Shown: positions 14,732 through 42,165, numbered from the stretch's first letter. The stretch: 64,000 nt of DNA from Algoriphagus ratkowskyi (GCF_002150505.1 NZ_MSSV01000001.1:1-64000), one strand, 5' to 3'. Made by a program: numbers and translations. Notes: generated from the sequence alone by a model not told the origin.

Positions 14732-14764
14732 AATATATTTTGTATATCCAGAAGTATATCCAGA

Positions 14765-15151: not shown

Positions 15152-15160
15152 AATAGACGA

Positions 15161-15604: not shown

Positions 15605-15660
15605 TGTGTAACTGTTTAATATTTAGCTTGTTAAATTTATTTCACCCTCAAAAAGGGACA

Positions 15661-15692: not shown

Positions 15693-15785
15693 ATATTTCC
15701 AATACTAAGTCCTAATTTTCACAGGCTTAGCTTTTTACTACCAATCATTTTCGGGTTTTTCTTCACTTTTTTCGATGGGGATCTC

Positions 15786-16496
15786 TTAGCTGGTTTTCTC
15801 TAGCTGAGTAACCAAAACCTTGAAATCCTTAGGATAGGGGGCATTTATGAACAAATCTGCTCCGTCCAAACCCTGAAATCCAATCGAATAAGCATGAAGC
15901 GAAACCCGCTGCATAATTGGTAATTCTTCTGTCTCTTTTTTTAAATTAAATCGACGCTTGATAGAAGAAAGGTATAAAGGGTTACCTCCATATAAAGTGT
16001 CTCCGCAAATCGGGGACTTGAGGTAAGCCAAATGAACCCTAATCTGGTGCAGTCTCCCAGTGATGGGTTTGCACTCGACTAATGTATGTGCGTAGTAGGT
16101 TTTCAACGTATTGAAAATCGTCTGCGCTGGCTTGCCATCTTTACTTACTTTGGCTATTCCTTTATTGTTGGCTGCGAGATTTCTGTCCACCAGCTCATCG
16201 CTGAATTCCTTGATCCCTTCCACCACTGCATGATAGACTTTGTTTACTTTTCTGCTTTCAAACTGCATGGCCAAATGCCTGTAGGCCGCTGGATTCTTAG
16301 CAATCACTAGACATCCTGAAGTTTCCTTATCCAATCGATGGCACAGTTGGGAATCGGGTGTGTGAGCCTTGGCTAAGTCTAGGATGTTCTGCGCTTCGTG
16401 CCTATCGTCTAAGCTTGATAGATACGGCGGTTTATTGATTACTAAATAATCCTCGTTTTCAAACAGAATAAGATTGTCAAAATCTACTTTCTTCAT
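15786..16496 (-). CDS. RluA-family RNA pseudouridine synthase
   Basis: A 236-aa RluA/YqcB-like pseudouridine synthase. The catalytic motif H-R-L-D-K-E-T-S-G is at residues 53-61 with the nucleophile Asp56; V-I-N-K-P-P near residue 19 and R-L-H-Q-I-R-V-H-L near residue 147 complete the family signature. There is no N-terminal S4 domain, so it is the short form, likely acting on a limited rRNA or tRNA site that cannot be told from sequence. It is convergent to nothing and sits 100 nt upstream-side of the histidine kinase stop on the same strand. Confidence 0.9.
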   Translation of the reverse strand: MKKVDFDNLILFENEDYLVINKPPYLSSLDDRHEAQNILDLAKAHTPDSQLCHRLDKETSGCLVIAKNPAAYRHLAMQFESRKVNKVYHAVVEGIKEFSDELVDRNLAANNKGIAKVSKDGKPAQTIFNTLKTYYAHTLVECKPITGRLHQIRVHLAYLKSPICGDTLYGGNPLYLSSIKRRFNLKKETEELPIMQRVSLHAYSIGFQGLDGADLFINAPYPKDFKVLVTQLEKTS

Positions 16497-16595
16497 GGAT
16501 TCTCCTGCCTCTTCAATTGAGGCTGCAAAAGTAGGGAAAAAAGGATGGGTAAAAAACTTCTCTGGATTTTATTCTTTATGGGTTACCACTTATGG

Positions 16596-17651: not shown

Positions 17652-18344
17652 TTATTGTCCTAATTCGAATTTATAACCTACACCTTTTACGGTAGTAATG
17701 TAATCATCTCCAATTTTCTCACGTACTTTTCTGATGTGCACATCGACAGTTCGCGCCAACACATATACATCGGTTCCCCAGATATTTTGAAGAAGTTCAT
17801 CTCTACTGAAAACGATATTAGGGCTTTTGGCTAGGAAATACAACAACTCAAATTCTTTCTTAGGAAGGATAATTGTCTTTCCTGCTTTGTCAATCGTATA
17901 GCTGCCACGGTCAATAATCAAATCTCTGATTTTGATCTGGATCTGATCTTGTTCCTTCTTGGACTCACGTCTGAAAAGCGCTGAAATCCTGCTCATCAAT
18001 GCGCGTGGCTTGATAGGTTTGGTGATGTAATCATCTGCCCCAACGTCAAATGCCGCTACTTCTGAATATTCTTCCATGCGAGCTGTAAGGAAAATGATGA
18101 AGGTATTTTTGAGCTCGGGGATCTGTCTGATTTGAAGGCAAGTTTCTACGCCATCCTGATTAGGCATCATGATATCCAAAAGAATCACGTCAGGTAGGAA
18201 CTTTGCTGCTGTTTTTACTGCTTTCAATCCATCTTCCGCAGTGGCTACATCATAACCTTCTTTGAGGAGATTATATTTTAGGATTTCAACAATATCAGGT
18301 TCGTCGTCAACTACCAGAACTTTGATTTTTTGCTTTTCGCTCAT
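17652..18344 (-). CDS. OmpR/PhoB-family response regulator
   Basis: A 230-aa DNA-binding response regulator. The receiver domain has D13-D14, phospho-acceptor Asp57 (I-L-L-D-I-M-M-P), conserved T86 region (F-L-T-A-R) and Lys107; the C-terminal winged helix carries the R-T-V-D-V-H-I-R-K-V-R-E-K-I-G recognition helix and the V-K-G-V-G-Y-K-F wing. It partners with the kinase encoded directly after it. A 10-bp hairpin lies 5 nt before its start codon and may influence translation. Confidence 0.95.
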   Translation of the reverse strand: MSEKQKIKVLVVDDEPDIVEILKYNLLKEGYDVATAEDGLKAVKTAAKFLPDVILLDIMMPNQDGVETCLQIRQIPELKNTFIIFLTARMEEYSEVAAFDVGADDYITKPIKPRALMSRISALFRRESKKEQDQIQIKIRDLIIDRGSYTIDKAGKTIILPKKEFELLYFLAKSPNIVFSRDELLQNIWGTDVYVLARTVDVHIRKVREKIGDDYITTVKGVGYKFELGQ

Positions 18345-18349
18345 CAGGG

Positions 18350-18381
18350 ATTTCTTAATGTTTGATTTAAAATTAAGAAAT
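18350..18381 (-). promoter_or_regulatory. 10-bp leader hairpin before the response regulator
   Basis: ATTTCTTAAT and ATTAAGAAAT pair around a 12-nt loop, ending 6 nt before the start codon. It is AT-rich, so it may be weak; a translational role is inference. Confidence 0.35.
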
Positions 18382-18495
18382 ATTTAAGGATTGGGACCTA
18401 ATAAATGAGCGCAGGGGGTGTTAAAAATGGATGCAAATGCCTAGAATGTTTGATAATAGCGACACTATGTTACCCCAGTGTTATGTACTTTTGGA

Positions 18496-19287
18496 TTAAT
18501 TGTTTTTCAAACCCTTGGCAGAGATGATGTCTAGATTGAGAGAGCCAATGAATAGATTGGCCTTGATTTTAACTGGGATTTTATACTGATCCTTTGTGAC
18601 CCATACCTTCACAGGGAATTCTCCTCGAAAAAGTTTATTCTTAGGGAGCTGTGGAGAGAATATGTACGTTTCCTTTTTTCCAAGATTGGTATCTAGGGTT
18701 TCTGTGCCCTCGTAGATTAACTTAATGTTATATATTTCCTTATCAAAGAATCCGCGGATTAGAATAGATTCTCCGGGCTTCAAATCCCTTAAATCTTGAG
18801 ATCTTAAGTGATAAAATCCGCTGACCAGATCCTGAACTTGACCAGGTAAATCAAAGTCTTTTGTGTCCTTTAGATTTCTGTTTTCCTTATCAAAAAGCTT
18901 CATAGTTGCTTTTTTGTTTTTTTGATCGAAGTGGACGTACTCGTGCTTTCGGTATTTGCCCTCTTCAATATGTCTATAGGATAAGGAAGGGAGGTTAGTT
19001 TCAATATCGAGGTAGGTTCCCCAGTTATCATTCACTTTCCCAAAAATCGTTGCTGCGCCTTTAGTTTTGCCGTACACATCAATTTTATAATGTGGTTTGT
19101 CATTCTGACTTTGCGGTTTTTTGGAAACTTGCATTTTGGCATCAGCAAGATTGAGCCATCCGTAGGAAACTTCAAAAGATAATTCCTCACCAAAAGTATA
19201 AGGATAGGAGCTTACTTGATCTTGTGCGGAGAGATCGAATAGGGTAAAGAATACAATGAGAGTAAGTGATCCGAGGATTCTTTTCAT
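18496..19287 (-). CDS. DUF3108 domain exported protein
   Basis: A 263-aa protein with a Sec signal peptide (cleavage near S-A-Q, residue 22) and a full DUF3108 domain: Y-P-Y-T-F-G-E-E-L-S-F-E-V-S-Y-G-W near residue 28, Y-K-I-D-V-Y-G-K-T-K-G near residue 68, and the late E-T-Y-I-F-S-P and P-V-K-V-W-V-T segments. DUF3108 proteins are periplasmic beta-rich proteins of unknown function, often conserved near recA or cell-envelope genes in Bacteroidota. It is divergent from recA with a 179-nt gap. Confidence 0.85.
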   Translation of the reverse strand: MKRILGSLTLIVFFTLFDLSAQDQVSSYPYTFGEELSFEVSYGWLNLADAKMQVSKKPQSQNDKPHYKIDVYGKTKGAATIFGKVNDNWGTYLDIETNLPSLSYRHIEEGKYRKHEYVHFDQKNKKATMKLFDKENRNLKDTKDFDLPGQVQDLVSGFYHLRSQDLRDLKPGESILIRGFFDKEIYNIKLIYEGTETLDTNLGKKETYIFSPQLPKNKLFRGEFPVKVWVTKDQYKIPVKIKANLFIGSLNLDIISAKGLKNN

Positions 19288-28835: not shown

Positions 28836-30515
28836 ATGAGTTCAGAAAAAATCATCTTTTCAATGGCAGGGGTTTCCAAAATCTACCCGCCACAGAAAAA
28901 AGTCCTCAAAGATATTTATCTCTCTTTTTTTTATGGAGCCAAAATCGGGGTTCTAGGTTTGAACGGATCAGGCAAATCCTCTCTTTTGAAAATCATAGCC
29001 GGTATGGATAAGGAATTCCAAGGCGAAGTTGTTTGGTCTGCGGGCTACACAGTTGGAATGCTGGAGCAGGAGCCAAAACTTGATCCCACTAAGACGGTGA
29101 AGGAAGTGGTAGAAGAAGCGGTTTCAGAGACGGTTGCTTTACTAAAGGAGTTTGAAGCAATCAATGAGAAATTCATGGATCCTGCTTTGATGGAAGATCC
29201 TGACGCTATGAATGACTTGATCGAGAAGCAAGGTGTGGTGCAGGAGAAGCTAGATGCAGCCAATGCGTGGGAACTCGATGTTATGCTTGATAAAGCAATG
29301 GATGCGCTTAGACTTCCTCCTAGTGACGCCAACGTGGCGAACCTTTCGGGTGGTGAGAAGAGAAGAGTAGCACTTTGTCGCTTGCTTCTGCAGGAACCAG
29401 ACGTTCTTCTACTTGATGAGCCTACCAATCACCTTGATGCTGAGTCTGTGCATTGGTTGGAGCAACATTTGAAAAATTACAAGGGTACCGTAATCGCGGT
29501 AACTCACGATAGATACTTCTTGGATAACGTAGCCGGTTGGATTCTTGAACTGGATCGTGGTGAAGGTATTCCATGGAAAGGAAATTATTCTTCTTGGCTG
29601 GATCAGAAGCAAAACCGCTTGAAGCAGGAAGAAAAGACCGAGTCTAAGCGTCAGAAGACCCTAGAGAGGGAACTGGAATGGATCAGAATGACTCCGAAAG
29701 CGCGCCAGGCCAAAGGTAAAGCAAGATTGAGTGCATACGACAGATTAGTAGGAGAGGATTCTAAGGAAAGAGAAGCGAAACTGGAATTATTTATTCCTCC
29801 AGGGCCACGTCTCGGCGCGAAAGTGATAGAAGTAAATGGTGTGTCCAAAGCTTACGGAGATAAATTGCTTTTCGAAAACCTGACTTTTGCTTTGCCACAA
29901 GGTGGGATTGTAGGTGTGATCGGGCCAAACGGTGCGGGTAAATCCACACTTTTCAAACTAATCACTGGACAAGAAAAACCAGATGCTGGTAATTTCGAAG
30001 TAGGAGAGACAGTGCAGTTGGCTTATGTTGATCAAGGACATGATATCTTGGATCCAAACAAAACTGTTTATCAGACAATTTCTGAAGGAAACGAGTTGAT
30101 GAAACTTGGAAATAGAGAGGTTAATTCCAGAGCCTACGTTTCCAAATTCAACTTCGGTGGAGGAGATCAGGAGAAAAAGGTAGGAATACTTTCCGGAGGA
30201 GAGCGTAACCGAGTTCATTTGGCACTTACGCTGAAAGAAGGCGGAAACCTTTTACTTCTCGATGAGCCAACCAATGATTTGGACGTGAACACACTTCGAG
30301 CGCTGGAAGAAGCCTTGGAGAACTTTGGTGGATGTGCGGTGGTGATTTCCCACGATAGATGGTTCCTGGATAGAATCTGTACTCACATTTTGGCATTCGA
30401 AGGAGATTCTCAGGTGGTGTGGTTTGAAGGGAACTTCTCCGACTACGAAGAGAACAAGAAAAAGCGTCTAGGTGACGTGGAGCCTAAGCGGATTCGATAT
30501 AAGAATTTGAAATAA
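28836..30515 (+). CDS. ettA: energy-dependent translational throttle protein EttA
   Basis: A 559-aa ABC-F ATPase that binds the ribosomal E site and gates the first elongation step by ATP/ADP ratio. Two ABC domains: Walker A G-L-N-G-S-G-K-S-S near residue 42 and G-P-N-G-A-G-K-S-T near residue 364; signatures L-S-G-G-E-K-R-R and L-S-G-G-E-R-N-R; Walker B L-L-L-D-E-P-T-N-H-L-D and L-L-L-D-E-P-T-N-D-L-D. The start K-I-I-F-S-M-A-G-V-S-K-I-Y-P-P and the EttA-specific arm insertion (near residue 95-145) separate it from other ABC-F proteins. Confidence 0.96.
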   Translation: MSSEKIIFSMAGVSKIYPPQKKVLKDIYLSFFYGAKIGVLGLNGSGKSSLLKIIAGMDKEFQGEVVWSAGYTVGMLEQEPKLDPTKTVKEVVEEAVSETVALLKEFEAINEKFMDPALMEDPDAMNDLIEKQGVVQEKLDAANAWELDVMLDKAMDALRLPPSDANVANLSGGEKRRVALCRLLLQEPDVLLLDEPTNHLDAESVHWLEQHLKNYKGTVIAVTHDRYFLDNVAGWILELDRGEGIPWKGNYSSWLDQKQNRLKQEEKTESKRQKTLERELEWIRMTPKARQAKGKARLSAYDRLVGEDSKEREAKLELFIPPGPRLGAKVIEVNGVSKAYGDKLLFENLTFALPQGGIVGVIGPNGAGKSTLFKLITGQEKPDAGNFEVGETVQLAYVDQGHDILDPNKTVYQTISEGNELMKLGNREVNSRAYVSKFNFGGGDQEKKVGILSGGERNRVHLALTLKEGGNLLLLDEPTNDLDVNTLRALEEALENFGGCAVVISHDRWFLDRICTHILAFEGDSQVVWFEGNFSDYEENKKKRLGDVEPKRIRYKNLK

Positions 30516-30576
30516 AGTCTGAATGCTGAAGTGAAAAAGCTGAAAAGCTATTTCCTAGGTTAATAACCTATGAGGT

Positions 30577-30600
30577 GTCACCCTGAGCGAAGTCGAAGGG
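30577..30600. repeat. dispersed GTCACCCTGAGCGAAGTCGAAG-type element
   Basis: The intergenic stretch 30577-30600 starts GTCACCCTGAGCGAAG and continues to a CGAAGGG end, an imperfect inverted repeat that recurs across very many bacterial genomes. Only one copy in this window. Confidence 0.6.
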
Positions 30601-30769
30601 ACTTTTCGAAGGTTCATGCTTTTGGTGTTTTTCGATTAAATCTTAGAACCTCTTTCAATCTTGATAATCAGGCTTGGAGGAGGTTTTTATTTTTTATAGG
30701 TTTAGTTCAATGAACAGTTTTTTATCTAATTGCTCTTTATGTAAAAAATGGTAATCTAAATTGAATTTA

Positions 30770-32290
30770 ATGAAGAAATCAATCAATCTGGATTTTGACA
30801 GGGTCAATAAGTACTATCAGCAATCAGATAGGACTGGCTTTTTTCAGGATATTTCTTCCAAGCTTTGGAATGATCTGGGGATGGAAGAAGTGTTTTTTAA
30901 AATAGATTATACCCTTACCAAATACGGGGAGCAATTCTTGTATTATTCCCTTCGATTGGTGAAAAAGGGGCCATTGGTAGACGAAAGTTTAGAATCAACA
31001 ATTCAGTTACTCGATAAAAACCCAGGTTTTAAATCCTTTTTGAAGAACAAACTTGAAATCTTAGCAAAGAATGATTCCTATTTTTTGTGTAATGTTTTTC
31101 AAAGAGACACAGCTAAAAATCCTTGGTATATCCTCTTGTTTTATATTCTATCGGGACTTTCTGTCATTAGTGTAGTCTCGGCATTTTTCATACAATGGAT
31201 GATTTTTCCAGCTATACTAGTGATCACCTGCAATTTCATAATTCACTATTGGAGCAAACTGACTGTGTCTCTAGAGTCAAGGACATTTGGCCAGCTTGGA
31301 GAAATGCTAGCCATTTCGCAGACCATTCTTAAAGAATCAAAAAATCAAAGAATTTTCCTGCCCAAACAGCCAGAAATCGAAAAGGTAGGGGGACTCATTT
31401 TTAAGGCATCTATGCTTAAACCGAGAATAAAAGGGTTTAGTGAATTAGCGGAATTGGCTGGGTACATTTTGGAGTTGATTAAGGCTGCGTTCCTGATAGA
31501 AACCCTGCTCTATTATTCACTACTTAAAGATATACGAGAGAAGCGAAGCGTTATAGAAGATAATTTTGAGTACGTTGCATACCTGGATTTTGCGCTATGC
31601 ATTCTACAACTTAGGAGGTCAGACCCTTCGATTACCTTGCCTCAAGAGCATGATTTGCTGCAAATTGACGGCAAGGGTATGCTTCACCCTTTGCTTTCAG
31701 AATCTATTCGAAATTCTATTCTGATTGATCACAATGGCGTTTTGATCACTGGCGCTAATATGTCAGGGAAAAGCACCTTCCTAAGAATTATCGGTTTGAA
31801 TTGCCTGTTGGTCCAAACCATTAATTGTGCTTTCGCCTCGGAACTGACGCTGCCCAAACTGAAAATTTATTCGTCTATCCAGACTTTTGATGAGTTGGAA
31901 AGTGACAAAAGTTATTTTTACAGTGAGGCCGAGACGATTAAAGGAATGCTTTCAGTTCAAAATGAGCAAGATTTTAACTTGGTTTTGATCGACGAGATTT
32001 TCAAAGGAACTAACAGTCGTGAGCGACTGGTGATTTCTTCAGAAGTTCTGAAACAACTAGCCAAAGAGAATTCTATTGTGATTGCCACGACTCATGACTT
32101 GGAGCTGGTTCATGGACTCTCTGGTTTTATGTTTTTCTACTTTACCGGACAGAATGTGGCTGGTAAATATCAATACGATTTCCAGCTCAGATCTGGAGTT
32201 TTGGATAGTACCAATGCTGTTTTTGTGCTGAGAGATATGGGATATCCTGCAGGCGTTTTAGATAAAATCAGGGGAAGGTTAGATAACTAA
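30770..32290 (+). CDS. MutS-related membrane-associated ATPase
   Basis: A 506-aa protein with a C-terminal MutS domain V: Walker A G-A-N-M-S-G-K-S-T near residue 328, Walker B L-V-L-I-D-E-I-F-K-G-T-N-S-R-E near residue 405, then a conserved T-T-H-D-L-E-L. It lacks the MutS mismatch-binding domain I, so it is not canonical MutS; two strongly hydrophobic segments (about residues 121-160) precede the core, suggesting membrane association. Proteins of this kind are common in Bacteroidota and unassigned. The ATG at 30770 was chosen over a TTG three codons upstream. Confidence 0.85.
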   Translation: MKKSINLDFDRVNKYYQQSDRTGFFQDISSKLWNDLGMEEVFFKIDYTLTKYGEQFLYYSLRLVKKGPLVDESLESTIQLLDKNPGFKSFLKNKLEILAKNDSYFLCNVFQRDTAKNPWYILLFYILSGLSVISVVSAFFIQWMIFPAILVITCNFIIHYWSKLTVSLESRTFGQLGEMLAISQTILKESKNQRIFLPKQPEIEKVGGLIFKASMLKPRIKGFSELAELAGYILELIKAAFLIETLLYYSLLKDIREKRSVIEDNFEYVAYLDFALCILQLRRSDPSITLPQEHDLLQIDGKGMLHPLLSESIRNSILIDHNGVLITGANMSGKSTFLRIIGLNCLLVQTINCAFASELTLPKLKIYSSIQTFDELESDKSYFYSEAETIKGMLSVQNEQDFNLVLIDEIFKGTNSRERLVISSEVLKQLAKENSIVIATTHDLELVHGLSGFMFFYFTGQNVAGKYQYDFQLRSGVLDSTNAVFVLRDMGYPAGVLDKIRGRLDN

Positions 32291-32364
32291 ATTGAGAAAA
32301 AGGTTGAGTTTTTGATTCTAATTATTCTTTAAATCCTTTATACAGTATTTGCTTTGAATTTTAA

Positions 32365-33054
32365 ATGATGAGAAAAATTAAAAATCATGTTATATCTGCG
32401 GAATTACTCGAGAAATTTAAACTATTTAACACTCAGTTTATTCAGGCACTAATAAAGTTAAATGAGAAATCTCCGGAGGTAGCCTTAAAAATAGCTAAAC
32501 AGGGATGGTATTTAGGGTTAATTTCCCACATGGGGGCTCCATTAGAACTTAATGTTTTTCTTGAAAATAATCAGCTTAAGGAGCTTGATGAATGGATGAT
32601 GGATGAAGTAAAAGGAAGAATGGAATGGATTGAGCAATCGCTTTTAAAACGAAACCCAGAGAGGAGGCTATTATTTCAAGAAGCTTTCGATAATCATAGA
32701 AAAGGTCGGTATTTCTCTTCAATAATTCTATTACTTTCTCAAGTAGATGGAATGTGTAATGAAAGATTTGGGAAATCATTTTTCAGTATAGACCGCGGTA
32801 CGCAAAAGCCAGTTTTAAAAGAGCCTATTGAAAAAATACACCTTCATGACTTAAACTGGATGCGAATTGCTTTTAAGAGTTTGACAGCTATAAATGACAA
32901 AACCTCAAATTCACATAAATATCCCGATTTTTTAAACAGACATAATATTCTGCACGGCTTTGACACTAAATATGGCACGGAAATCAATTCATTAAAAATC
33001 ATATCATTTTTGAATTGCGTAAATGATATGATCTACTTCGATTTAGAACTATAA
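32365..33054 (+). CDS. hypothetical protein with HEPN-like C-terminus
   Basis: A 229-aa soluble protein I do not recognise by name. Predicted to be mostly helical. The C-terminal part carries L-N-R-H-N-I-L-H-G with R192 and H197 spaced R-x4-H, the catalytic signature of HEPN RNases, then a conserved-looking Y-G-T-E-I-N-S-L-K segment as in HEPN proteins of abortive-infection type. The G-R-Y-F-S-S-I-I-L-L-L-S-Q-V-D-G segment near residue 114-130 is also family-like. There is no antitoxin partner next to it. It starts with two adjacent ATG codons. It lies at the left edge of the AT-rich island, and a defence role is only inference. Confidence 0.6.
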   Translation: MMRKIKNHVISAELLEKFKLFNTQFIQALIKLNEKSPEVALKIAKQGWYLGLISHMGAPLELNVFLENNQLKELDEWMMDEVKGRMEWIEQSLLKRNPERRLLFQEAFDNHRKGRYFSSIILLLSQVDGMCNERFGKSFFSIDRGTQKPVLKEPIEKIHLHDLNWMRIAFKSLTAINDKTSNSHKYPDFLNRHNILHGFDTKYGTEINSLKIISFLNCVNDMIYFDLEL

Positions 33055-33160
33055 TAGCGCTAATAACTAAGACTTTTTAATTGATCAATCTAAAATATTT
33101 ACCAGCAATCTTGAATTTTTAAATAAAAAAACATCAAAGGTCAGCTCACTTATTTCACTT

Positions 33161-33397
33161 CTGTCTGCGTCACCTAATACTTTTGATCATAAAATTTCCA
33201 ACTGATGATTTTTCCAAGCAGCTCCTTCCAAAAATACAGAATGAGGAAGGCTCAAATCCCAAGTCCCAAGTCCCAAGCTTTTTTAAAAAGAAAGCATTCG
33301 CATGAATTTTCTTCAGGGCTACAGCATTTTGCTAAGCAGGGTCTACAGCCAAATTGTAAAGCATTGGCAGTCTGTCTGGAATGGTTACAAGTTTCCA
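33161..33397 (-). pseudogene. sulfatase 3'-end remnant, copy A
   Basis: The plus strand here aligns with the 3' end of the intact sulfatase gene at 39243-40664: shared landmarks are CTGCGTCAC, CAGGATGAGGAAG-like sequence, GCCAAATTGTAAAGCAT and CTGGAATGGTTACAAGTTTCC. It is broken by indels and stops and covers only the last about 75 codons. Relative to copy B it carries one extra TCCCAAG heptamer (three tandem copies versus two near 33257). Confidence 0.8.
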
Positions 33398-33890
33398 AAC
33401 TTTATGAAACTAAGTGCTCTCAAGATTTATCTAAGAGCTTAGCAGTGGAACCAGATAGATATGCCAAAATACTAGGAGCAGTTTTAGCTATAAATAAAAA
33501 AGTTGTTATGATTTAATATCGGACTAATAATGTCTGTTAGCTGAAACCATCGATACTGTCACTCTGTCTCAATCAACAGAATAAACTAGACGGTGTTCAA
33601 GGTTGATTCTTCTAGACCAGAAGCCAGAATAGTTATTTTTCAATCGATCTGGTTTACCTGTACCAGTTTCAGAATGCTGGATGAAATGAGAGATGAAGGA
33701 ATTGAAATCAGGTTTTCCAAGCGGTCGAATTCCTTTGTTTTCGAGAATTGTAAAGGCTTAAATGTGTTTTTCTCACTTGAGGTTTTGGAGTCAAGTGAAA
33801 ATAGGAATATCTCTGCCGGAAAAAGTTTGAATTATGTTCCAGCATCTAAAATTTTAGACGGAACTATGTTTTCTTTAACCTATGATCAGT
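33346..33890. repeat. 545-bp module-leader direct repeat, copy A
   Basis: This block recurs at 36242-36786 with a constant offset of 2,896 nt checked at several points, so no net insertion or deletion separates them. Its first 50 nt are the end of the sulfatase remnant; the rest has no homology I recognise. Plus-strand frames (33205-33516 and GTG 33593-33913) continue through it, but differences between copies fall on all three codon positions, so coding is doubtful. It ends just before the double-glycine peptides and may hold their promoter. Confidence 0.85.
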
Positions 33891-33987
33891 CGGCAAAGAG
33901 AAAGGCTAGCTAACTTATTTGCTCGTGCTGAGATTGGGAATTCCGATGCCCGGAAAAGATTGGTGTAAAGCATAAATTGTTTAACTT

Positions 33988-34176
33988 ATGGATAATTTTA
34001 AAGAGTTGACTTCATCTGAAATTAAATTTATTGATGGGGGTGGTTGGATTGCAGATGCTGTAGAATGGTTTGTTAGTGGGCTGATTTGCGGCTGCACAAA
34101 TGATGCAAGAGAAGGTGCAAGAGGGTACGGAGGTGTTCTAGGGATGAATGATTATGTCCCAAATTCTGCCAAATAA
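33988..34176 (+). CDS. double-glycine leader peptide 1 (bacteriocin-like)
   Basis: A 62-aa peptide with a classical GG leader: M-D-N-F-K-E-L-T-S-S-E-I-K-F-I-D-G-G-G, then a 43-residue core beginning W-I-A-D-A-V-E-W-F-V and containing C-G-C and a Gly-rich middle. The leader matches class II bacteriocin and secreted-peptide leaders cleaved after GG by C39-type peptidase exporters; many Bacteroidota peptides of this type are annotated as class IIb bacteriocin-like. No exporter is adjacent. It starts 98 nt after the 545-bp repeat and is 11 nt ahead of peptide 2. Confidence 0.75.
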   Translation: MDNFKELTSSEIKFIDGGGWIADAVEWFVSGLICGCTNDAREGARGYGGVLGMNDYVPNSAK

Positions 34177-34187
34177 ATTATATAATT

Positions 34188-34364
34188 ATGAAAAAAATTA
34201 AAATCGATATTATGGAAAATTTACTTGAAACCGAATTGTTATCAATTTCTGGAGGACAAAATTTACTTGGCCCAACTTTCTGGTGGTTGTATGTGTTTAC
34301 GGAGGTTATGGAAGGAGTACAAAAGGGAGTGGTAACTGATTGTAGTGAAACTTGTACTAACTAA
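34188..34364 (+). CDS. double-glycine leader peptide 2 (bacteriocin-like)
   Basis: A 58-aa peptide too short for routine gene calling. Leader M-K-K-I-K-I-D-I-M-E-N-L-L-E-T-E-L-L-S-I then S-G-G, core of 35 residues with aromatic-rich P-T-F-W-W-L-Y-V-F and a C-terminal C-S-E-T-C pair that could form a disulfide. It follows peptide 1 by 11 nt, so the two are probably cotranscribed like the two components of a two-peptide bacteriocin. Its stop is 7 nt before a 12-bp hairpin. Confidence 0.7.
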   Translation: MKKIKIDIMENLLETELLSISGGQNLLGPTFWWLYVFTEVMEGVQKGVVTDCSETCTN

Positions 34365-34371
34365 CAAAAAT

Positions 34372-34399
34372 AAATGGGTAGAAAATCATTTCTACCCAT
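34372..34399 (+). promoter_or_regulatory. 12-bp hairpin between peptides and CPBP gene
   Basis: AATGGGTAGAAA / TTTCTACCCATT pairs perfectly over a 4-nt loop. There is no T-run after it, so it may be an RNA processing or stability element rather than a terminator. The apparent upstream ATG of the membrane protein (34374) lies inside the stem, a reason to prefer the ATG at 34410. Confidence 0.7.
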
Positions 34400-34409
34400 T
34401 CTAGATATT

Positions 34410-34982
34410 ATGAATGAAAAGTTGAAGTTTGTGATAGTTTTTTTTGGACTTATTATCTACAATTTTGTTTTTGTTGATAAGATCTCATTCCATTTTGGTC
34501 TTGAAGGTAATACCAAAGCATTTTCAAGTTTAACTTTAATTTCCATTATATCGGCGATAGTGATTGCTCCAATATTGGAAGAAAGTATATTTAGGTGGGT
34601 GCTTTTAAAGAATGAAATGATTAAATATTATTTATATATTTTGTATAGTTTATGTATTATATTATTTATTGATGTCAATACTGGAGTGATTTTATTATTA
34701 TTTTTTTCTGGAGGACTTCTTCTTTTACACAAAGTAAAAGAAGAAAGCAGTTTAATTTTTTATGTTTTTATTTTTTTCGGGGCAATAACTTTCAGTTTGA
34801 TTCATATTCCTGTTATAAGTGGGTCGTCATTAAGAATTAATTTGATTATAGCAATATCGGCATTCCTTCCAATAGGCTTCTTTCTTTCTTTAATTAGAAC
34901 TAAATTTGGATTAATTTACTCTATATTGTTGCATTGTGTTTATAATGTCATTATTTTATCTGTAAATGAAGTTGTATATTAA
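34410..34982 (+). CDS. CPBP-family intramembrane protease-like protein
   Basis: A 190-aa protein with six to seven hydrophobic helices and all three CPBP (Abi/CaaX protease-bacteriocin processing) motifs: E-E-S-I-F-R at residues 57-62, F-S-L-I-H with His132, and H-C-V-Y-N with His175 and Asn179. The family includes bacteriocin self-immunity and maturation proteins in firmicutes (for example the SkkI/PlnI type), which fits the preceding GG peptides. It is clearly richer in A and T than its surroundings. The start at 34410 was chosen over 34374 because of the hairpin. The next gene overlaps its end by 17 nt. Confidence 0.85.
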   Translation: MNEKLKFVIVFFGLIIYNFVFVDKISFHFGLEGNTKAFSSLTLISIISAIVIAPILEESIFRWVLLKNEMIKYYLYILYSLCIILFIDVNTGVILLLFFSGGLLLLHKVKEESSLIFYVFIFFGAITFSLIHIPVISGSSLRINLIIAISAFLPIGFFLSLIRTKFGLIYSILLHCVYNVIILSVNEVVY

Positions 34983-35169
34983 GTTTATTATTTATTCCAT
35001 ATTAACATTTTTTGCAATAAGTTCCATTGATTTAATAATTGAAGTTTTTTTACGGGGATTTTCATTTAAGGACTGGTTGAATAACTTTATAGTTATAAGA
35101 GTTAGAATAAACTTACTAGTTTCAATACTTTTTTCTTTTTACATAATAATAATGCGTAGATCTAAATAA
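34966..35169 (+). CDS. 67-aa two-helix membrane peptide, candidate immunity protein
   Basis: A short hydrophobic protein with two transmembrane helices (about residues 5-28 and 43-62) and a basic end R-R-S-K. It overlaps the CPBP gene by 17 nt, suggesting translational coupling. Very AT-rich. I do not recognise a family; size and topology resemble small bacteriocin immunity proteins, but that is inference from context. Confidence 0.5.
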   Translation: MKLYIKFIIYSILTFFAISSIDLIIEVFLRGFSFKDWLNNFIVIRVRINLLVSILFSFYIIIMRRSK

Positions 35170-35299
35170 ATTTTTCAAACACGAATTTAATGGGTACTTA
35201 TCTCTAAGCAAAAAGATGTTTATAGAGTTTAATTTCCACAACCCTGCTTAAGTTAGAGGAAGACTGGGAAGTCCAATTGATTGAAACAGCTCCCTCTCT

Positions 35300-36030
35300 C
35301 TTCCTAGCAAAGCAGCTAATATGCAGCGTCTGTACGAAATCCAAAAAGAGCTGGGTTTAACCCTCTCACTAAATGAATCTGTGAAACTAAGTGGAATAAC
35401 ATCTGATTACTGTGTGGATCCCACTCAGTCCAAAGGAGCATAGGACTACGAAGTATTGGTATTTGCCTATCAATACTCTATGCAGTATTCCTACAAAAGG
35501 AATGGATGATAGTATTAATACAGTTTGACTTACAAATTTTCTACGATCAGCTAAAATATCTCCCTCACGGGTTCCGGTAAGGGATTGAAATGTTCCGTTT
35601 AGAAAACGCACAATATCTTCGCCAAATAGAAAAACCAGTATGATCAACTTCGGAATCAACGACAATACCAGAAGATAGATAATCCTTCCAAAGTTGGGAC
35701 TAGGACTATTTCGGCTGAAGCTCAGAAAACCGTAGGCAAACAAAAGGAATACGAAAATTAAAAAGACCAAATCACAATCTTGACCCAGCATTGCTCAGAA
35801 ATTAGGGTTGTGAAAGCTTGATAGGAATACCAGTCAATTAGGAATAATAAGACTATGACAATTACAATGCGAACCAATAGGGAAAGATTTTTTAAACGAA
35901 AAAATATATTGCGATTTAAAGAAGACTCTAAAAAGTTAAGCCTAATAAAATTAGATCCTGTATGCAAAAAAAACAATTCATTGGTTGAAATAGATGCTAA
36001 TATATTATGCATCAATGGTGAAAACATTAG
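35300..36030 (-). pseudogene. decayed metallophosphoesterase copy with an inverted piece
   Basis: From about 35435 to 36000 the minus strand encodes fragments equal to the N-terminal part of the intact metallophosphoesterase at 37856-39070: L-I-D-W-Y-S-Y-Q-A-F, F-L-F-G-E-D-I-V-R-F-L and I-G-K-Y-Q-Y, interrupted by frame changes and stops. At 35306-35394 the plus strand instead encodes A-A-N-M-Q-R-L-Y-E-I-Q-K-E-L-G, matching a later part of the same protein (near residue 247) but in the opposite orientation, so a deletion with inversion has occurred. The 5' side also covers the intergenic sequence before the sulfatase. Confidence 0.8.
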
Positions 36031-36063
36031 TCGCCATTCTTGATTCTCCGTTCTAATTTGTTC

Positions 36064-36293
36064 TCGGCTGCGTCACCTGATATTTATAATCATACAATCC
36101 CAACTGGCGCTTTTTCCATTCATCCCCTTACAAGAATATAGGATGGGGAAGATTTACATCCCAAGTCCCAAGTTTTTTTAATAAGTAAGTAGTCTTATCA
36201 ATGTTTTTCCAGAGCTAAATTATTTTCCTCAGAAGGATCTTCAGCCAAATTGTAAAGCATTGGCAGTCTGTCTGGAATGGTTACAAGTTTCCA
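36064..36293 (-). pseudogene. sulfatase 3'-end remnant, copy B
   Basis: Continues from the metallophosphoesterase remnant just as the intact pair is arranged at 37856-39243. It aligns with the last about 75 codons of the intact sulfatase (offset close to 3,190 nt) and stops where homology ends at TTTCCA (36288-36293). TCCCAAG occurs twice in tandem here. Confidence 0.8.
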
Positions 36294-36786
36294 GATTTTA
36301 TGAAACTAAGTGCTCTCAAGATTTATCTAAGAGCTTAGCAGTGGAACCAGATAGATATGCCAAAATACTAGGAGCAGTTTTAGCTATAAATAAAAAAGTT
36401 GTTATGATTTAATATCGGACTAATAATTTCCGTTAGCTGAAACCATCGATACTGTCACTCTGTCTTAATCAATTGAATAAACTAGGCGGTGTTCATGGTT
36501 GATTCTTCTAGACCAGAAGCCAGAATAGTTGTTTTTCAATCGCTCTGGTTTATCTGTGCCAGCTTCATGATGTTGGACGAGTTGAGGGATGAGGAAATTG
36601 AAATCAGGTTTTCCAAGCGTTCAAATTCCTTTATTTTCGATAATTGTAAAGGCCTAAATGTGTTTTTCTCACTTGAGGTTTTGGAATTAAGTGAAAATAG
36701 AAATATCTCTACCGGAAAAAGTTTGAATTATGTTCCAGCATCTAAAATTTTAGACTGAACTATCTTTTCTTTAAGGTATGGTCAGT
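36242..36786. repeat. 545-bp module-leader direct repeat, copy B
   Basis: Partner of 33346-33890 at a fixed distance of 2,896 nt. The first part (to about 36500) is almost identical to copy A, the later part has about one difference per ten bases. It is followed 31 nt later by the second pair of double-glycine peptides. The frame starting GTG 36489 is shortened by a TGA relative to copy A. Confidence 0.85.
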
Positions 36787-36817
36787 AGGGGTCAGGTTAA
36801 ATTAAATTTTTAAAAAA

Positions 36818-37009
36818 ATAGATAAATTTAAAGAGTTGAGTTTGGAGGAGATGCAAGAATTTAATGGAGGATTAACCTGGCTAGCTTTGGCTGGGGCTGT
36901 CGCATTAACCGTTGCATTGGAAGCATTAATGAATCCTAAAGCAACAATTGATGCAATGAGTAGTGGATGGGGTAAAGCAGAAGAACTTGAAAAGTATTCG
37001 GATAATTAA
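36818..37009 (+). CDS. double-glycine leader peptide 3, non-canonical ATA start
   Basis: A 63-codon frame clearly homologous to peptide 1 in its leader: I/M-D-K-F-K-E-L-S-L-E-E-M-Q-E-F-N-G-G versus M-D-N-F-K-E-L in peptide 1. The codon equivalent to ATG is ATA (36818-36820); nearest in-frame alternatives are TTG 36836 and ATG 36851, which would leave a truncated leader. The core is alanine-rich and hydrophobic (L-A-L-A-G-A-V-A-L-T-V-A-L-E-A-L) with a polar tail. Either translation uses a weak start or the gene is recently inactivated. Confidence 0.5.
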   Translation: MDKFKELSLEEMQEFNGGLTWLALAGAVALTVALEALMNPKATIDAMSSGWGKAEELEKYSDN

Positions 37010-37020
37010 TCTTAAAAAAA

Positions 37021-37200
37021 ATGAAAGAATTACATGAATTAAAGGAACGTGACCTCCTTGAAATACAAGGTGGGGGCTTAAGTGAAATTACAGAAGCTTT
37101 CTGGGATGGAGTAGGTTATGTAGCTAGAGTTTACGTAATATGCTGTGAAATAGCAGTAAAAACTGACACATATCAAGACCCTATGTATTATAGTAAGTAG
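37021..37200 (+). CDS. double-glycine leader peptide 4 (bacteriocin-like)
   Basis: A 59-aa peptide: leader M-K-E-L-H-E-L-K-E-R-D-L-L-E-I-Q-G-G-G, core of 40 residues with A-F-W-D-G-V-G-Y-V-A-R-V-Y-V-I and a C-C pair, ending Y-Y-S-K. It starts 11 nt after peptide 3, the same spacing as peptides 1 and 2. Positionally equivalent to peptide 2; aromatic core segments are alike in character. Confidence 0.7.
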   Translation: MKELHELKERDLLEIQGGGLSEITEAFWDGVGYVARVYVICCEIAVKTDTYQDPMYYSK

Positions 37201-37215
37201 TTAATTAAGATTAAT

Positions 37216-37255
37216 AATCACTGAGAATCATAATTCTCCAGTGATTTCTTTTTTT
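37216..37255 (+). terminator. terminator-like hairpin between peptide 4 and VanZ-like gene
   Basis: AATCACTG AGAAT pairs with ATTCT C CAGTGATT (one bulged C) over a 4-nt loop and is followed by TCTTTTTTT. It sits 15 nt after the peptide stop and 8 nt before the membrane gene, so it probably lets only part of transcription reach that gene. Confidence 0.75.
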
Positions 37256-37262
37256 GCATGAT

Positions 37263-37643
37263 ATGATTAAGAAAAATTATAAGCGGGTTGTTCTTATTTT
37301 ATTGCTATTCATCTTAGCCTTTCTTTTAGTTAACTATTATAGACCTTTCAAAGCCAAGCATGGTTTTTTTGATTTCGGATTGGCAGATAGTGGTTCAGGA
37401 ATGATCTCAATTGTCATAGTTTATTTTTTTTTATCAAAAAAAAGTATGTCTTTTCTAGAGTCGCTAAAATTAGCATGCTTGATTTTCTCCTTGTATCTCA
37501 CTCAAGAGATTTTGTCTTATTTTTCTCCGTTTATTGGAACATTTGATGTGAAGGACTTACTATATTATTTCTTTGGTTTGGTAATCGTTTTCTATTTTGA
37601 TATTAGGAAAAGAGAAGTCTTTCCTGAAGAGAAAATGCACTAA
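37263..37643 (+). CDS. VanZ-like small membrane protein
   Basis: A 126-aa protein with four hydrophobic helices and basic termini. The final G-T-F-D-V-K-D-L-L-Y-Y-F-F-G segment near residue 97 resembles the VanZ signature (D-x-x-D-x-x-x-N-x-x-G) though the Asn is replaced by Tyr. It takes the position that the CPBP protein has in module 1, right after two GG peptides and a hairpin. It may be an immunity protein; function is inferred from context. The ATG at 37263 was chosen over a TTG three codons upstream. Confidence 0.65.
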   Translation: MIKKNYKRVVLILLLFILAFLLVNYYRPFKAKHGFFDFGLADSGSGMISIVIVYFFLSKKSMSFLESLKLACLIFSLYLTQEILSYFSPFIGTFDVKDLLYYFFGLVIVFYFDIRKREVFPEEKMH

Positions 37644-37828
37644 ATTATATAGGCTTGCTGATACTTAATTGGTCAAGCGTCAAGTCATCAAAGTGAAATA
37701 AAACTCGTTTTTCGAGTCCCGATTAATCTCGCGGATGTAAACTCGAAGTTTGATCGGAAGATTTGTAATCTTAAAAACTAAGTCTATTTTCCTAGTATTT
37801 CGGATTTGAAATCCTATTATATAGGTTC

Positions 37829-37845
37829 AGGATTGCAAATCCTGA
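37829..37845. repeat. small inverted repeat CAGGATT / AATCCTG
   Basis: A 7-bp stem over GCA in the gap before the metallophosphoesterase stop, preceded by a GGATTTGAAATCC palindrome. Together they may act as a terminator on the minus strand, but no T-run is present. Confidence 0.35.
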
Positions 37846-37855
37846 CCAGTATACC

Positions 37856-39070
37856 CTACTTCCTCTTCAACTTAATCACCGTTATTTCCGGCCAAATACC
37901 TACCCTCCCAGCAAAGGCTAAAAAACCAAAGCCACGGTTTATATATAAGTAGCGGCCTAGTTCTTCATACAGTCCGGCCCATTTAGGATAGCGAAGGGAT
38001 ACCGGGCTCCATTTGATAAAACCGGGAATTTCGATCCCAAATTGCATTCCATGGGTATGACCACTCAAGGTTAGATGGATAAATTGGGAGAAATTTTTTA
38101 CTTCTTCATCAAAGTGAGAAGGGTCGTGGCTCATGAGTATTTTAAAACTTTGATCGCTGAGATTTGCAGTAGCTTTCTTGAGATCTCCATACTGCCCAAA
38201 TCCCTTTCCCCAATTCTCTATCCCAATCAGGTCTATACTTGCGCCTTTTCTTTCAAGCTTGACATTTTCATTACGTAAGAGTGTAAAACCTAATTCTTTT
38301 TGGATTTTGTACAGGCGCTGCATATTGGCTGCTTTGGCCTCCTTGCTAGGCCATGATACATAGTCCCCGTAGTCATGATTGCCTAGGATGGAGTAGATAC
38401 CCATGGGAGCTTCCAGCTTTTTAAACGTTTCTATCCATGGTTCCATTTCTATTGCTTGGTTGTTCACCAGATCTCCAGTAAATAGGATGACATCTGACCC
38501 TTGCTCATTTATTAACTCAATGCCATATTCCAGCTTCTTTTTATTATCAAAACTTCCGGAGTGTATATCTGAAATCTGCGTAATCGTAAAGCAATCAAAC
38601 TCCTCAGGTAGGTCGTCAAATTCCAAGGTATGGTGTATTACCCGGTATCTATATTTGCCTATTAATACGCCATGCAATATTCCTAAAAAAGGAATTGCAG
38701 AAATTACCAATGCAGTTTGACTGATGAATTTTCTGCGCTCAGCTAGGAAATCACCTTCATGGTTTCCGGTAAGGTATTGATAGGTTCCGGTTAAAAAGCG
38801 GACGAGATCTTCTCCAAATAGAAATGCCAGAATGATCAACTTTGGGATCAAAGACAGCACAAGCAAGGAAATAAGCCTGCCAAAGTTTGGAGTAGGGCTG
38901 CTACGGCTGAAGGTCAGAAAACCGTAGGCGGCAAAAAGGTATACTGAAATCGAGAAGATCCAAAAGCCGATCTTAATCCAGTTTTGCTCCGGAAATAGGG
39001 TTGCGAAAGCTTGATAGGAATACCAGTCGATGAGGAAAACAAAGACTAGGAGGATTATAATGCGAAGCAA
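37856..39070 (-). CDS. membrane metallophosphoesterase, YkuE-like
   Basis: A 404-aa protein with four N-terminal transmembrane helices (about residues 4-24, 33-53, 66-86 and 117-138) and a C-terminal calcineurin-like phosphoesterase domain: D-I-H at 168-170, G-D at 199-200, G-N-H-D at 230-233, S-H-D-P near residue 315 and S-G-H-T-H-G near residue 334. All metal ligands are present. Substrates may be phospholipids or nucleotides; not determinable. A broken copy lies at 35300-36030. The start is 173 nt from the sulfatase stop on the same strand. Confidence 0.92.
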   Translation of the reverse strand: MLRIIILLVFVFLIDWYSYQAFATLFPEQNWIKIGFWIFSISVYLFAAYGFLTFSRSSPTPNFGRLISLLVLSLIPKLIILAFLFGEDLVRFLTGTYQYLTGNHEGDFLAERRKFISQTALVISAIPFLGILHGVLIGKYRYRVIHHTLEFDDLPEEFDCFTITQISDIHSGSFDNKKKLEYGIELINEQGSDVILFTGDLVNNQAIEMEPWIETFKKLEAPMGIYSILGNHDYGDYVSWPSKEAKAANMQRLYKIQKELGFTLLRNENVKLERKGASIDLIGIENWGKGFGQYGDLKKATANLSDQSFKILMSHDPSHFDEEVKNFSQFIHLTLSGHTHGMQFGIEIPGFIKWSPVSLRYPKWAGLYEELGRYLYINRGFGFLAFAGRVGIWPEITVIKLKRK

Positions 39071-39242
39071 TAGAAAGAGATTATATTGAACGAGGAATTA
39101 TAAGATGATTTGCCAGAGAATTTAAAACCTAAGGCAAACTAGGATAAACCCTGTACGCAAAAGAATAGATTATTGGTTGACTTAGATGCAATTATTTATA
39201 CTTCAAAGGTGAAAGGCCTAGTCTCCATTTTTGATTCTGAGT

Positions 39243-40664
39243 CTATTTTGTTTTCGGCTGCGTCACTTCGTATTCATGCTCATACAGGCTCAACTGCCGT
39301 TTTTTCCAAACTGCTCCTTCTAAGAATACAGGATGAGGAAGATTCACATCCCAGTTACCTAGCTTTTTCAATAGATAGGTAGTTTTGTCGAGGTTCTTCA
39401 AAGCCAAATCGTTTTGTTCGGATGGGTCATCAGCCAGATTGTAAAGCATAGGCATTCTATCTGGAATACTTACCAGTTTCCAATCACCCTCTCGAATTGC
39501 TCTGCTAATGGTGAATTTCCAAGTCATCTCCCGATTGGCAAGAGGAGCAGTTTTTCCAGTAAGGTGAGGGAGTAAATCCAATCCAGTAAACATATTCATG
39601 TCGGTTTCTTTGTCTCCAGCTAGTGCAAGAAAGGTAGGGACGATATCAAGTGAAGTCACTTGTTCATCATAGTTTAGGCCTTTTGGAAGTAAACTCGGTA
39701 AATTCATCACGAAAGGAACATGGATTCCGCCTTCAAGCAAAATTCCTTTCTGTCCCCGATAAGGCGCATTGTTAGAAGCATTGCTATCCGTTGGTCCACC
39801 ATTATCGCTGATGAATACCACCAGTGTGTTTTCTTTGAGACCTTGGTCTTCCAGTGATTGCATGATTTTTCCCACATTCAAATCAAGTCGGTGCACCATC
39901 GCCGCATAGGTGCGTCGCTTTTTGTCAGCAATGTTTTGGTATAAAGCCAAATCCTCTTCTAGTGCTTGCATAGGAGTGTGAGGAGCATTGAATGCTGCAA
40001 AGAGAAAAAACGGCTCGTCCTTATGTCGAGTGATAAAATCCACGCTTTCATTTCCTACATCATCAGTGATATAAGTGATCGGAGCGGGAGTTTTGAAATT
40101 GCTCTCCAAAGGTTCTTTGTAACCTGTTCCATTAGGCAAGGCCTCAAAGTAATCGTGACCACCGCCAGTATATCCCCAGAATTCATCAAATCCTCTCTTC
40201 AGGGGATGGAATTGAGGTTCTTTTCCCAAATGCCATTTTCCGATCAAACCATTGACATAACCTAGCTTATTCAAATGATCAGCGATTGTTTGTTGGGTGA
40301 GTGGAAGTCCGTTGTATTCAGGGTCAAACCCAGGTTCAACTCCTCCCAGGTTATTGTCGTGGCCGAATTCCACTTGATTGATTCCTGTGATAAACCCAGC
40401 TCTAGAGGGGCTACAAACAGCAGAGGAAACGTAGCCTTGAGTAAAGGTGACGCCACTCGCAGCGAGTTTGTCTATTTTTGGTGTTTTGATCTGTGTGCTA
40501 CCTGTAAAACCCAAATCTCCATATCCTAAATCATCAGCGACGATCAAGACCAAATTATAATGAGTGGGAGCAGGATTTTTTGTCAAAGTGTCGATCGTAG
40601 CTTGGCTAAAAAATGGATAAAGCACAAGTGCTAGCGTGATAATGTGGGTTAGTAGGGTTTTCAT
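39243..40664 (-). CDS. secreted arylsulfatase-type sulfatase
   Basis: A 473-aa type I sulfatase with a signal peptide (cleavage near S-Q-A, residue 23). Formylglycine motif C-S-P-S-R-A-G-F-I-T-G begins at Cys84; the metal aspartates are in V-A-D-D-L-G-Y-G-D near residue 42, and I-S-D-N-G-G-P near residue 285 supplies the second acidic pair. G-K-W-H-L-G is also present. It is of arylsulfatase A-like type and should desulfate glycans or aryl sulfates in the periplasm. The frame is open 7 codons upstream; ATG 40664 starts the signal peptide well. Two copies of its 3' end sit to the left. Confidence 0.93.
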   Translation of the reverse strand: MKTLLTHIITLALVLYPFFSQATIDTLTKNPAPTHYNLVLIVADDLGYGDLGFTGSTQIKTPKIDKLAASGVTFTQGYVSSAVCSPSRAGFITGINQVEFGHDNNLGGVEPGFDPEYNGLPLTQQTIADHLNKLGYVNGLIGKWHLGKEPQFHPLKRGFDEFWGYTGGGHDYFEALPNGTGYKEPLESNFKTPAPITYITDDVGNESVDFITRHKDEPFFLFAAFNAPHTPMQALEEDLALYQNIADKKRRTYAAMVHRLDLNVGKIMQSLEDQGLKENTLVVFISDNGGPTDSNASNNAPYRGQKGILLEGGIHVPFVMNLPSLLPKGLNYDEQVTSLDIVPTFLALAGDKETDMNMFTGLDLLPHLTGKTAPLANREMTWKFTISRAIREGDWKLVSIPDRMPMLYNLADDPSEQNDLALKNLDKTTYLLKKLGNWDVNLPHPVFLEGAVWKKRQLSLYEHEYEVTQPKTK

Positions 40665-40863
40665 TTCAATGACTTTTGATACCATAGGAAACGTTAAGGA
40701 TAAGACAAATTCCAGTGAAAAAGAATCTCAAATACAATTAGTGTTAAGGTGGGTATAAGTCATGATGTAAATCTTCCTTCTGAACTTTTGTTATTTTATT
40801 CCATTTTCTAGGCTTTTTCGTTTCTTTACACCCGAATTATTTTGCATTCAGCCTAACAAACCT

Positions 40864-42165
40864 ATGAGACAGCTACTCCTCAGACCCGGAGCCGAAGAAT
40901 TGACGTATGAAATTCGTGGAATTGTAAAAAAAGCCCGTCAAGTGGAAGCCTTGGGCTATACGATGACTTGGGAAAATATCGGAGATCCTATCCAAAAGAG
41001 CAATCGAGTGCCAGAGTGGATGAAGGAAATCATAGCCGATTTGCTGAAGGAGGATAAGACGTATGGCTATGCGGATTCCAAAGGAGTGTTGGAAACGCGT
41101 AGATTTCTCGCTGATCTCAACAATGCAAGAGGAGGGAGTCAAATCACTGCAGAAGATATTTTATTCTTTAATGGGCTAGGGGATGCTATCGCAAAACTGT
41201 ATCAGTTTTTGATCCCGACAGCAAGAATTATTGGTCCTTCACCAGCATATAGTACGCATAGTTCTGCTGAAGCCGCTCATGCCAACGCTGCTCCGATTAC
41301 CTACAAACTTGATCCGGATAATCAGTGGCTACCAGATATGGAGGACTTGTATTTGAAGGTTCGTTATAATCCTTCGATAGTCGGAATCTTGATTATCAAT
41401 CCGGATAATCCAACGGGGATGGTTTATCCACGGGAGGTGTTGGAGGCTTTTGTGAAAATTGCCGAGGAGTTTAATCTGCTACTTATCTCGGATGAGATCT
41501 ACCAAAATATCACCTACAACGGAATTACGGCTGTTCCACTTGCCGAAGTAATTGGAGATAGACCTGCAATTTCACTGAAAGGGATTTCCAAGGAATTTCC
41601 TTGGCCAGGATCACGCTGTGGCTGGATGGAATTTTATAACCGAGAGTCCTCCATAGAGTTTTCGAAGCTTTGCCAGACGTTGGAGAATGCCAAGATGATC
41701 GAGGTTTGCTCTACTATTTTGCCTCAGCTAGCAATTCCAAAAATCATGAAGCATCCAGCTTATTTCAAGTACAGAGAAGAAGCAAATGCTCAAATAGGTA
41801 AGCGTAGCGATTGGATGCGAGAGATTTTAGGAGATATTCCAGGGATTAAATTTAACCCTACTCAGGGAGCATTTTATAATACCATCGTATTTGACGAGGG
41901 CGTATTGAAGGAAGATCAATTTCTCCCAATTCAGGATGAGAAATTACAAGCATTGCTAGATACTTGGCTTTTGGAAAAAAACATGCCGATGGACAAGCAA
42001 TTCGTCTATAATTTATTAGCAGCAGAACAGATTTGCGTAGTGCCGATTTCATCCTTTTGCTCGGATTTGAGAGGTTTCCGAGTGACGCTTTTGGAGGAAA
42101 ATGAAGAGGTTTTCAAAAGTACGTTTAGGAGAATAGGGAAAGCGATTGAGAGTTATTTGAAGTAG
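40864..42165 (+). CDS. PLP-dependent class I/II aminotransferase
   Basis: A 433-aa fold-type I aminotransferase. PLP lysine is expected at Lys244 in G-I-S-K-E-F-P-W-P-G-S-R-C-G-W; N-P-D-N-P-T-G near residue 180 and S-D-E-I-Y near residue 210 bind PLP; the R-V-T-L-L-E segment near residue 412 carries the substrate-carboxylate Arg. Length is slightly above most AspC/AlaA enzymes because of insertions. It could act on alanine, aspartate or aromatic amino acids; specificity is not clear. The stop is 8 nt before a 15-bp REP-like hairpin. Confidence 0.9.
   Translation: MRQLLLRPGAEELTYEIRGIVKKARQVEALGYTMTWENIGDPIQKSNRVPEWMKEIIADLLKEDKTYGYADSKGVLETRRFLADLNNARGGSQITAEDILFFNGLGDAIAKLYQFLIPTARIIGPSPAYSTHSSAEAAHANAAPITYKLDPDNQWLPDMEDLYLKVRYNPSIVGILIINPDNPTGMVYPREVLEAFVKIAEEFNLLLISDEIYQNITYNGITAVPLAEVIGDRPAISLKGISKEFPWPGSRCGWMEFYNRESSIEFSKLCQTLENAKMIEVCSTILPQLAIPKIMKHPAYFKYREEANAQIGKRSDWMREILGDIPGIKFNPTQGAFYNTIVFDEGVLKEDQFLPIQDEKLQALLDTWLLEKNMPMDKQFVYNLLAAEQICVVPISSFCSDLRGFRVTLLEENEEVFKSTFRRIGKAIESYLK

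Follow-up and report, generated by a model that had tools for sequence, protein, structure and literature searches.

Paired double-glycine leader peptides with membrane partner genes in Algoriphagus ratkowskyi: probable remnants of a class IIb-like bacteriocin system

Two peptide modules and their membrane partners

The window, the 64,000-nucleotide stretch of Algoriphagus ratkowskyi DNA analysed here, carries two units sharing one plan, in which a pair of double-glycine (GG) leader peptide genes is followed by a hairpin and a gene for a multi-pass membrane protein. This two-unit plan, described in a first-pass annotation, was confirmed by the repeated blocks, peptide pairs, hairpins, and membrane genes. 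Module 1 contains peptides 1a (33988..34176, plus strand; core after MDNFKELTSSEIKFIDGG) and 1b (34188..34364, plus strand), and module 2 contains peptides 2a (36818..37009, plus strand) and 2b (37021..37200, plus strand). The partner peptides are separated by 11 nt in module 1 and module 2 alike, and both this spacing and the GG leaders, as annotated, were borne out by the coordinates and a leader HMM. Peptide 1a (12.8 bits) has a relative in genome G358 and matches the Pfam family Bacteriocin_IIc at an E-value of 1.1e-4, under the gathering score; peptide 1b (10.0 bits) is 38% identical to L108:5029-5205. Peptides 2a (11.7 bits when read from TTG) and 2b (13.5 bits) share 65% and 51% identity with L067:2116-2307 and L067:1925-2104, respectively.

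With the leader HMM built from relatives and the four window peptides excluded, these peptides scored 10.0-13.5 bits and ranked as the top four of 419 window ORFs, whereas no other ORF exceeded 2.7 and no reversed ORF 3.2. Because their scores far exceed those of all other and reversed ORFs, the four GG-leader ORFs are not chance ORFs. Both modules therefore possess the two adjacent GG-leader prepeptide genes characteristic of class IIb, with peptide 2a having an ATA start (36818) where its homologues carry ATG, the closest usual in-frame start being TTG at 36836. Apart from this start, every cargo frame is open, while the adjacent relics are disrupted several times.

The proposed immunity protein of module 1 is a CPBP (Abi/Rce1-like) membrane protein (34410..34982, plus strand), matching the Pfam Rce1-like family with an E-value of 2.6e-6 and a score of 28.1 bits (cut-off 22.4). 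It carries the motifs EExxxR, FxxxH, and HxxxN, each of them invariant in the alignment with relatives; motifs and score together place the protein in the CPBP/Abi family, in agreement with its earlier description as a CPBP-type protein with all catalytic motifs. A scan of the genome contigs with this protein returned no match. The annotation had further assigned a 67-aa membrane peptide to module 1; a hydrophobic ORF of this length is indeed present (34966..35169, plus strand), partly overlapping the CPBP gene at the latter's 3' end, but its status is uncertain, as it has no homologue in any relative locus compared and no Pfam match.

The proposed immunity protein of module 2 (37263..37643, plus strand) is 52% identical to L067:1486-1866, which sits after a homologous peptide pair, and its structure model (pLDDT 85) contains four long helices. 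The label "VanZ-like" given to it holds in so far as it is a small helical membrane protein and four of 11 members of its family match the VanZ model (PF04892), all weakly (best E 0.0038). The window protein itself, however, has no Pfam match and thus no significant match to VanZ, and a fold search with the model found nothing at E <= 0.001 in the PDB or BFVD. Unlike VanZ, its family follows peptide pairs and not glycopeptide-resistance genes.

The hairpin predicted before the membrane gene of each unit was also borne out. That of module 1 (34373..34400, plus strand) separates peptide 1b from the CPBP gene (-15.4 kcal/mol, z -5.7, folded over 34365-34409), and that of module 2 (37216..37246, plus strand) separates peptide 2b from the VanZ-like gene (z -3.8, folded over 37201-37259). 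A hairpin between the second peptide and the partner gene was found in 12 of the 12 loci folded, with differing sequences, and probably tunes the relative expression of the peptides and the membrane gene. A sigma-70 promoter scan was uninformative; the Bacteroidota use another promoter type.

Gene relics in the repeated block and its flanks

Each module is preceded by a copy of a repeated block (33165-33893 and 36068-36789), the two being 88% identical over 730 nt and 93% across the first 300-nt family. The annotation regarded this as a 545-bp leader block, a view that did not survive tblastn and homology comparison: the block is a mosaic assembled from the remains of broken genes. On the minus strand these are a sulfatase gene's 3' end and a YoeB toxin gene interrupted by an in-frame stop; on the plus strand a regulator relic is left, the C-terminal 75-81 residues of a small HTH protein. 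A regulatory-leader or RNA reading was rejected in favour of these relics, and no Rfam family matched at gathering thresholds.

In block 1, the sulfatase relic (33165..33398, minus strand) matches the intact resident gene (39243-40685) in two frames at 63-65% by tblastn, its DNA being 71% identical to that gene and 75% to G006. The YoeB-type relic (33527..33733, minus strand; internal stop) is 61% identical over 69 aa to the YoeB protein of L011, itself a match to PF06769 (E 2.6e-21), and the relic of the cognate HTH regulator (33668..33910, plus strand) retains only the C-terminal 81 residues, with 63% identity to L033:4937-5299. Block 2 holds the corresponding YoeB-type (36423..36593, minus strand; in-frame stop; 68% over 57 aa to the same protein) and HTH relics (36561..36785, plus strand; in-frame TGA; 61-62% to the same L033 ORF), together with a probably imported sulfatase 3'-end relic (36059..36293, minus strand). 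Intact YoeB-like toxin/antitoxin pairs matching the block relic occur at several Algoriphagus sites (L003, L011-L016, L018). Between the modules lies a metallophosphoesterase gene relic (35279..35877, minus strand, with 35279-35389 inverted to plus), consisting of three pieces in different frames with 63-65% identity to the intact protein.

Since the second sulfatase relic shares 85.4% identity with G006 but 76.8% with the resident gene, whose own nearest relative is G069 (86%), import from another species seems to account for at least part of the flank. Simple local duplication is thus insufficient to account for the flanks. The metallophosphoesterase relic, at 78.2% to the resident gene and 77.4% to G069, decides nothing on origin.

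The genes around the locus (28836-42165) encode ABC-F, MutS-like, metallophosphoesterase, sulfatase, and aminotransferase proteins. The same neighbourhood holds different bacteriocin cassettes in the Algoriphagus genomes G007, G022, G040, and G042, and none in the G006, G010, and G069 regions examined; from these comparisons, an integration hot spot at the ABC-F/MutS-like neighbourhood is possible. The ABC-F and MutS-like genes found near the window locus enclose, in G007, a VanZ-like gene without a recognisable adjacent peptide. On either side of this gene (L073, region 1261-2180), local sequence (..NNNKTSFNLDNQAWRRFLFFIGLVQ..) recurs as a near-direct repeat, which suggests insertion with duplication of the target region.

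Complete clusters in relatives and the missing exporter

The layout of a peptide pair plus a membrane gene, whose absence from related genomes the annotation had named as telling against its proposal, is in fact widespread. Clusters with the cognate exporter occur in Aquiflexum, Cecembia, Belliella, Cyclobacterium, Lunatimonas, Indibacter, Echinicola, and other Cyclobacteriaceae, in the order HlyD, C39/ABC, HTH, GG, GG, and membrane protein; two or three cassettes per cluster are common, and the HTH gene lies immediately upstream of the peptide pair. Related clusters, some of them differing in gene order, are found in Pedobacter, Mesonia, Psychroflexus, and Bacteroidales, and in some relatives' clusters a single GG peptide was detected. 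Across the relatives' loci, 69 ORFs scored at least 8 against a version of the leader profile that included the window peptides, compared with no reversed ORF. A membrane gene follows each peptide pair, here and in relatives, encoding a CPBP protein, a VanZ-like protein, or another protein with 2-5 predicted helices; these partners are swapped among cassettes while the pair and hairpin remain.

The module 2 trio is kept in G110, a different genus (peptide a 65%, peptide b 51%, and VanZ-like protein 52% identity). By codon position, the differences number 15/11/35 for peptide a, 40/29/69 for the VanZ-like gene, and 19/16/25 for peptide b, a third-position excess that is evident in peptide 2a and the VanZ-like gene, and slight in peptide 2b; dS is near saturation for most genes and dN/dS is only a guide. 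This excess indicates past selection on peptide 2a and the VanZ-like gene. A trio related to module 1 occurs in a third genus (G358), where peptide 1 shares GGGW[IL]AD and CGC, peptide 2 is 38% and the CPBP protein 36% identical, and HlyD followed by a truncated C39 gene lies next to it.

The composition of the cores from other genomes (66 in number) fits helix packing, to judge from sequence statistics: GxxxG was observed 43 times against 32.3 expected (p 0.02), [GAS]xxx[GAS] 237 times against 184 expected (a count reached in 0 of 2000 shuffles), and GxxG is depleted. GxxxG is present in the module 1 cores and absent from those of module 2. The mean core charge is slightly negative (-0.8), which is unusual among class II bacteriocins.

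In the window genome, the absence of an adjacent C39 exporter was correctly annotated; the regulator, though, is not wholly absent, as relics of it persist in both blocks, both HTH copies being broken. A C39 ABC exporter with its accessory protein, expected in a class IIb cluster, is lacking at the modules and present in relatives. The genome search proposed in the annotation recovered two C39 domains. One belongs to a C39/ABC exporter on contig C51, the only such exporter in the genome, which is accompanied by HlyD and a LanC-like gene close to mobilisation and transposase genes; it is not of the cognate type, with which it shares about 31% identity. No exporter nearer the cognate type was found in the assembly, a draft of 53 contigs in which the missing exporter could sit in a gap. 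The region on C51 (L007, G000:C51:306000-325116, about 8743-19117) also carries two glycosyltransferase-like ORFs; it is probably a modified-peptide cluster of its own, carried by a mobile element. The other C39 domain is N-terminal in a 520-aa membrane protein (L008, G000:C39; features at 387-659, 969-2531, and 2649-2882) with a GG peptide of a different leader type (MKKLNLGKLKL...) on either side.

The cognate exporter is 94% identical between A. faecimaris (G011) and A. alkaliphilus (G002), and is damaged elsewhere, being truncated in G008 (A. boritolerans) and G040 and frame-broken in G022. Given that relatives carry the exporter and regulator adjacent to the cassettes and that regulator remnants lie inside the block, the annotated orphan state is correct and reflects loss.

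Bacteriocin-immunity cassettes and competing readings

On the observed layout, homology, conservation, relics, and absence of the cognate exporter, we consider it probable that the modules are class IIb-like bacteriocin-immunity cassettes of the Bacteroidota, stranded without their exporter and regulator, and capable at most of immunity or dependent on a distant exporter. Because the peptide pair, leaders, and CPBP partner of such a system are all found but the exporter is missing from the locus, they are filed, on their gene content, as the remnant of a class IIb-like system and not as a working class IIb bacteriocin.

Judging from the known families, the C39 exporter of the complete relatives would remove the leader of each prepeptide by a cut after GG and secrete the freed cores; the two cores would then act jointly on the membranes of related bacteria, while the multi-pass partner (CPBP in module 1, VanZ-like in module 2) would shield the producer. 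Immunity to two-peptide bacteriocins is a reported role of Abi/CPBP proteins (PMC6957408), and pneumococcal blp cassettes contain CAAX or small membrane immunity genes, the protection by the CAAX type being assumed (PMC4860687). The CPBP and VanZ-like proteins probably protect the producer in the same manner, the role of the latter being drawn by analogy. In the window genome, the exporter and adaptor are gone, C-terminal scraps are all that is left of the regulator, and one peptide is without ATG; the cassettes occupy a neighbourhood in which cassettes of this kind appear to settle repeatedly within the genus, between relics partly from another species. Cleavage and export, killing, immunity, expression, and selective benefit are all inferred; retained immunity is the most to be expected in this strain, by analogy with exporter-defective pneumococci (PMC4739721).

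The annotation's bacteriocin or signalling-peptide system with swapped immunity or processing genes is accordingly supported in part. Swapped immunity genes are well supported by the same cassettes standing beside HlyD and C39 in many Bacteroidota with exchanged partners; swapped processing genes are less likely, as the C39 peptidase cleaves the leaders in such systems and the Abi/CPBP proteins are known for immunity (PMC6957408).

The reading that competes best, and which overlaps with the preferred one, is that the whole region is dead, all its cargo being early-decay pseudogenes with none expressed. We hold this to be a serious but lesser possibility. The flanks are relics with stops and frameshifts, peptide 2a has no ATG, the exporter and regulator are lost, and the exporters of G008, G040, and G022 are likewise defective. 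The cargo frames, however, are open save for that one start, next to multiply disrupted relics; the surplus of third-position differences in peptide 2a and in the VanZ-like gene speaks for past selection; and the peptide-less VanZ-like gene of G007 fits retention of immunity.

It is unlikely that the system still works, with the remote C39/ABC exporter and HlyD on C51 processing and secreting the peptides in trans. That pair is intact, and pneumococci with a broken BlpA can still export BlpC through ComAB (PMC4739721), but the exporter's distance from the cognate type and its setting beside a LanC-like gene, with mobilisation and transposase genes close by, argue against the idea, as do the broken HTH copies and the missing ATG of peptide 2a.

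GG peptides also act as pheromones. Slightly less likely again is a signalling role here, with the CPBP and VanZ-like proteins as receptors or processing proteases, for although single peptides match the BlpC and ComC models weakly and the CPBP catalytic motifs are intact, the peptides are paired with diverse cores, the partner family changes while pair and hairpin stay, the C39 domain accounts for leader cleavage, and a non-systematic look recognised no sensor kinase beside the clusters.

Among characterised systems, the bacteriocin-immunity cassettes most resemble plantaricin EF/JK of Lactiplantibacillus plantarum (class IIb with Abi/CPBP immunity) in their adjacent GG prepeptides followed by a CPBP gene and, in complete relatives, a C39/ABC exporter with accessory protein. 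They differ in belonging to Gram-negative Bacteroidota, in the HlyD adaptor, the slightly anionic cores, and the VanZ-like partner of module 2, and in having a small HTH protein in place of a recognised kinase and response regulator, with exporter and regulator lost from the window genome. Pneumococcal blp loci of "cheater" strains with a broken blpA similarly retain bacteriocin and immunity cassettes despite the defective dedicated exporter, with mixed and recombining CAAX and small membrane immunity genes reminiscent of the partners here (PMC4739721, PMC4860687); blp loci keep their regulatory genes and pheromone response, whereas the window locus keeps regulator relics only. Bacteroidetocins are likewise GG-leader peptides of Bacteroidota encoded next to a peptidase-containing ABC transporter, but are single four-cysteine peptides that come with a thiol oxidoreductase and lack an obvious immunity protein (PMC6671954); the window peptides, being paired, with cores of 0-2 Cys and a membrane partner, fall outside that group as defined there. 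Among the papers searched, none described a two-peptide GG bacteriocin system in Cyclobacteriaceae or a VanZ-like protein acting in bacteriocin immunity.

More speculatively, and with considerable doubt, the cassettes might be immunity-only "cheater" units moving between Algoriphagus species via recombination in the flanking relics, with the VanZ-like proteins forming a new class of immunity factor against the two-peptide bacteriocins of Bacteroidota. Complete clusters, such as that of Algoriphagus faecimaris (L117), make toxin activity and CPBP or VanZ-like immunity directly testable, and the several species with a damaged exporter but remaining cassettes would test the orphan-immunity idea beyond streptococci. 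Elsewhere in the window (2199-3293, minus strand), a separate 364-aa membrane protein resembles, by eye, a fusion of VanZ plus RDD.
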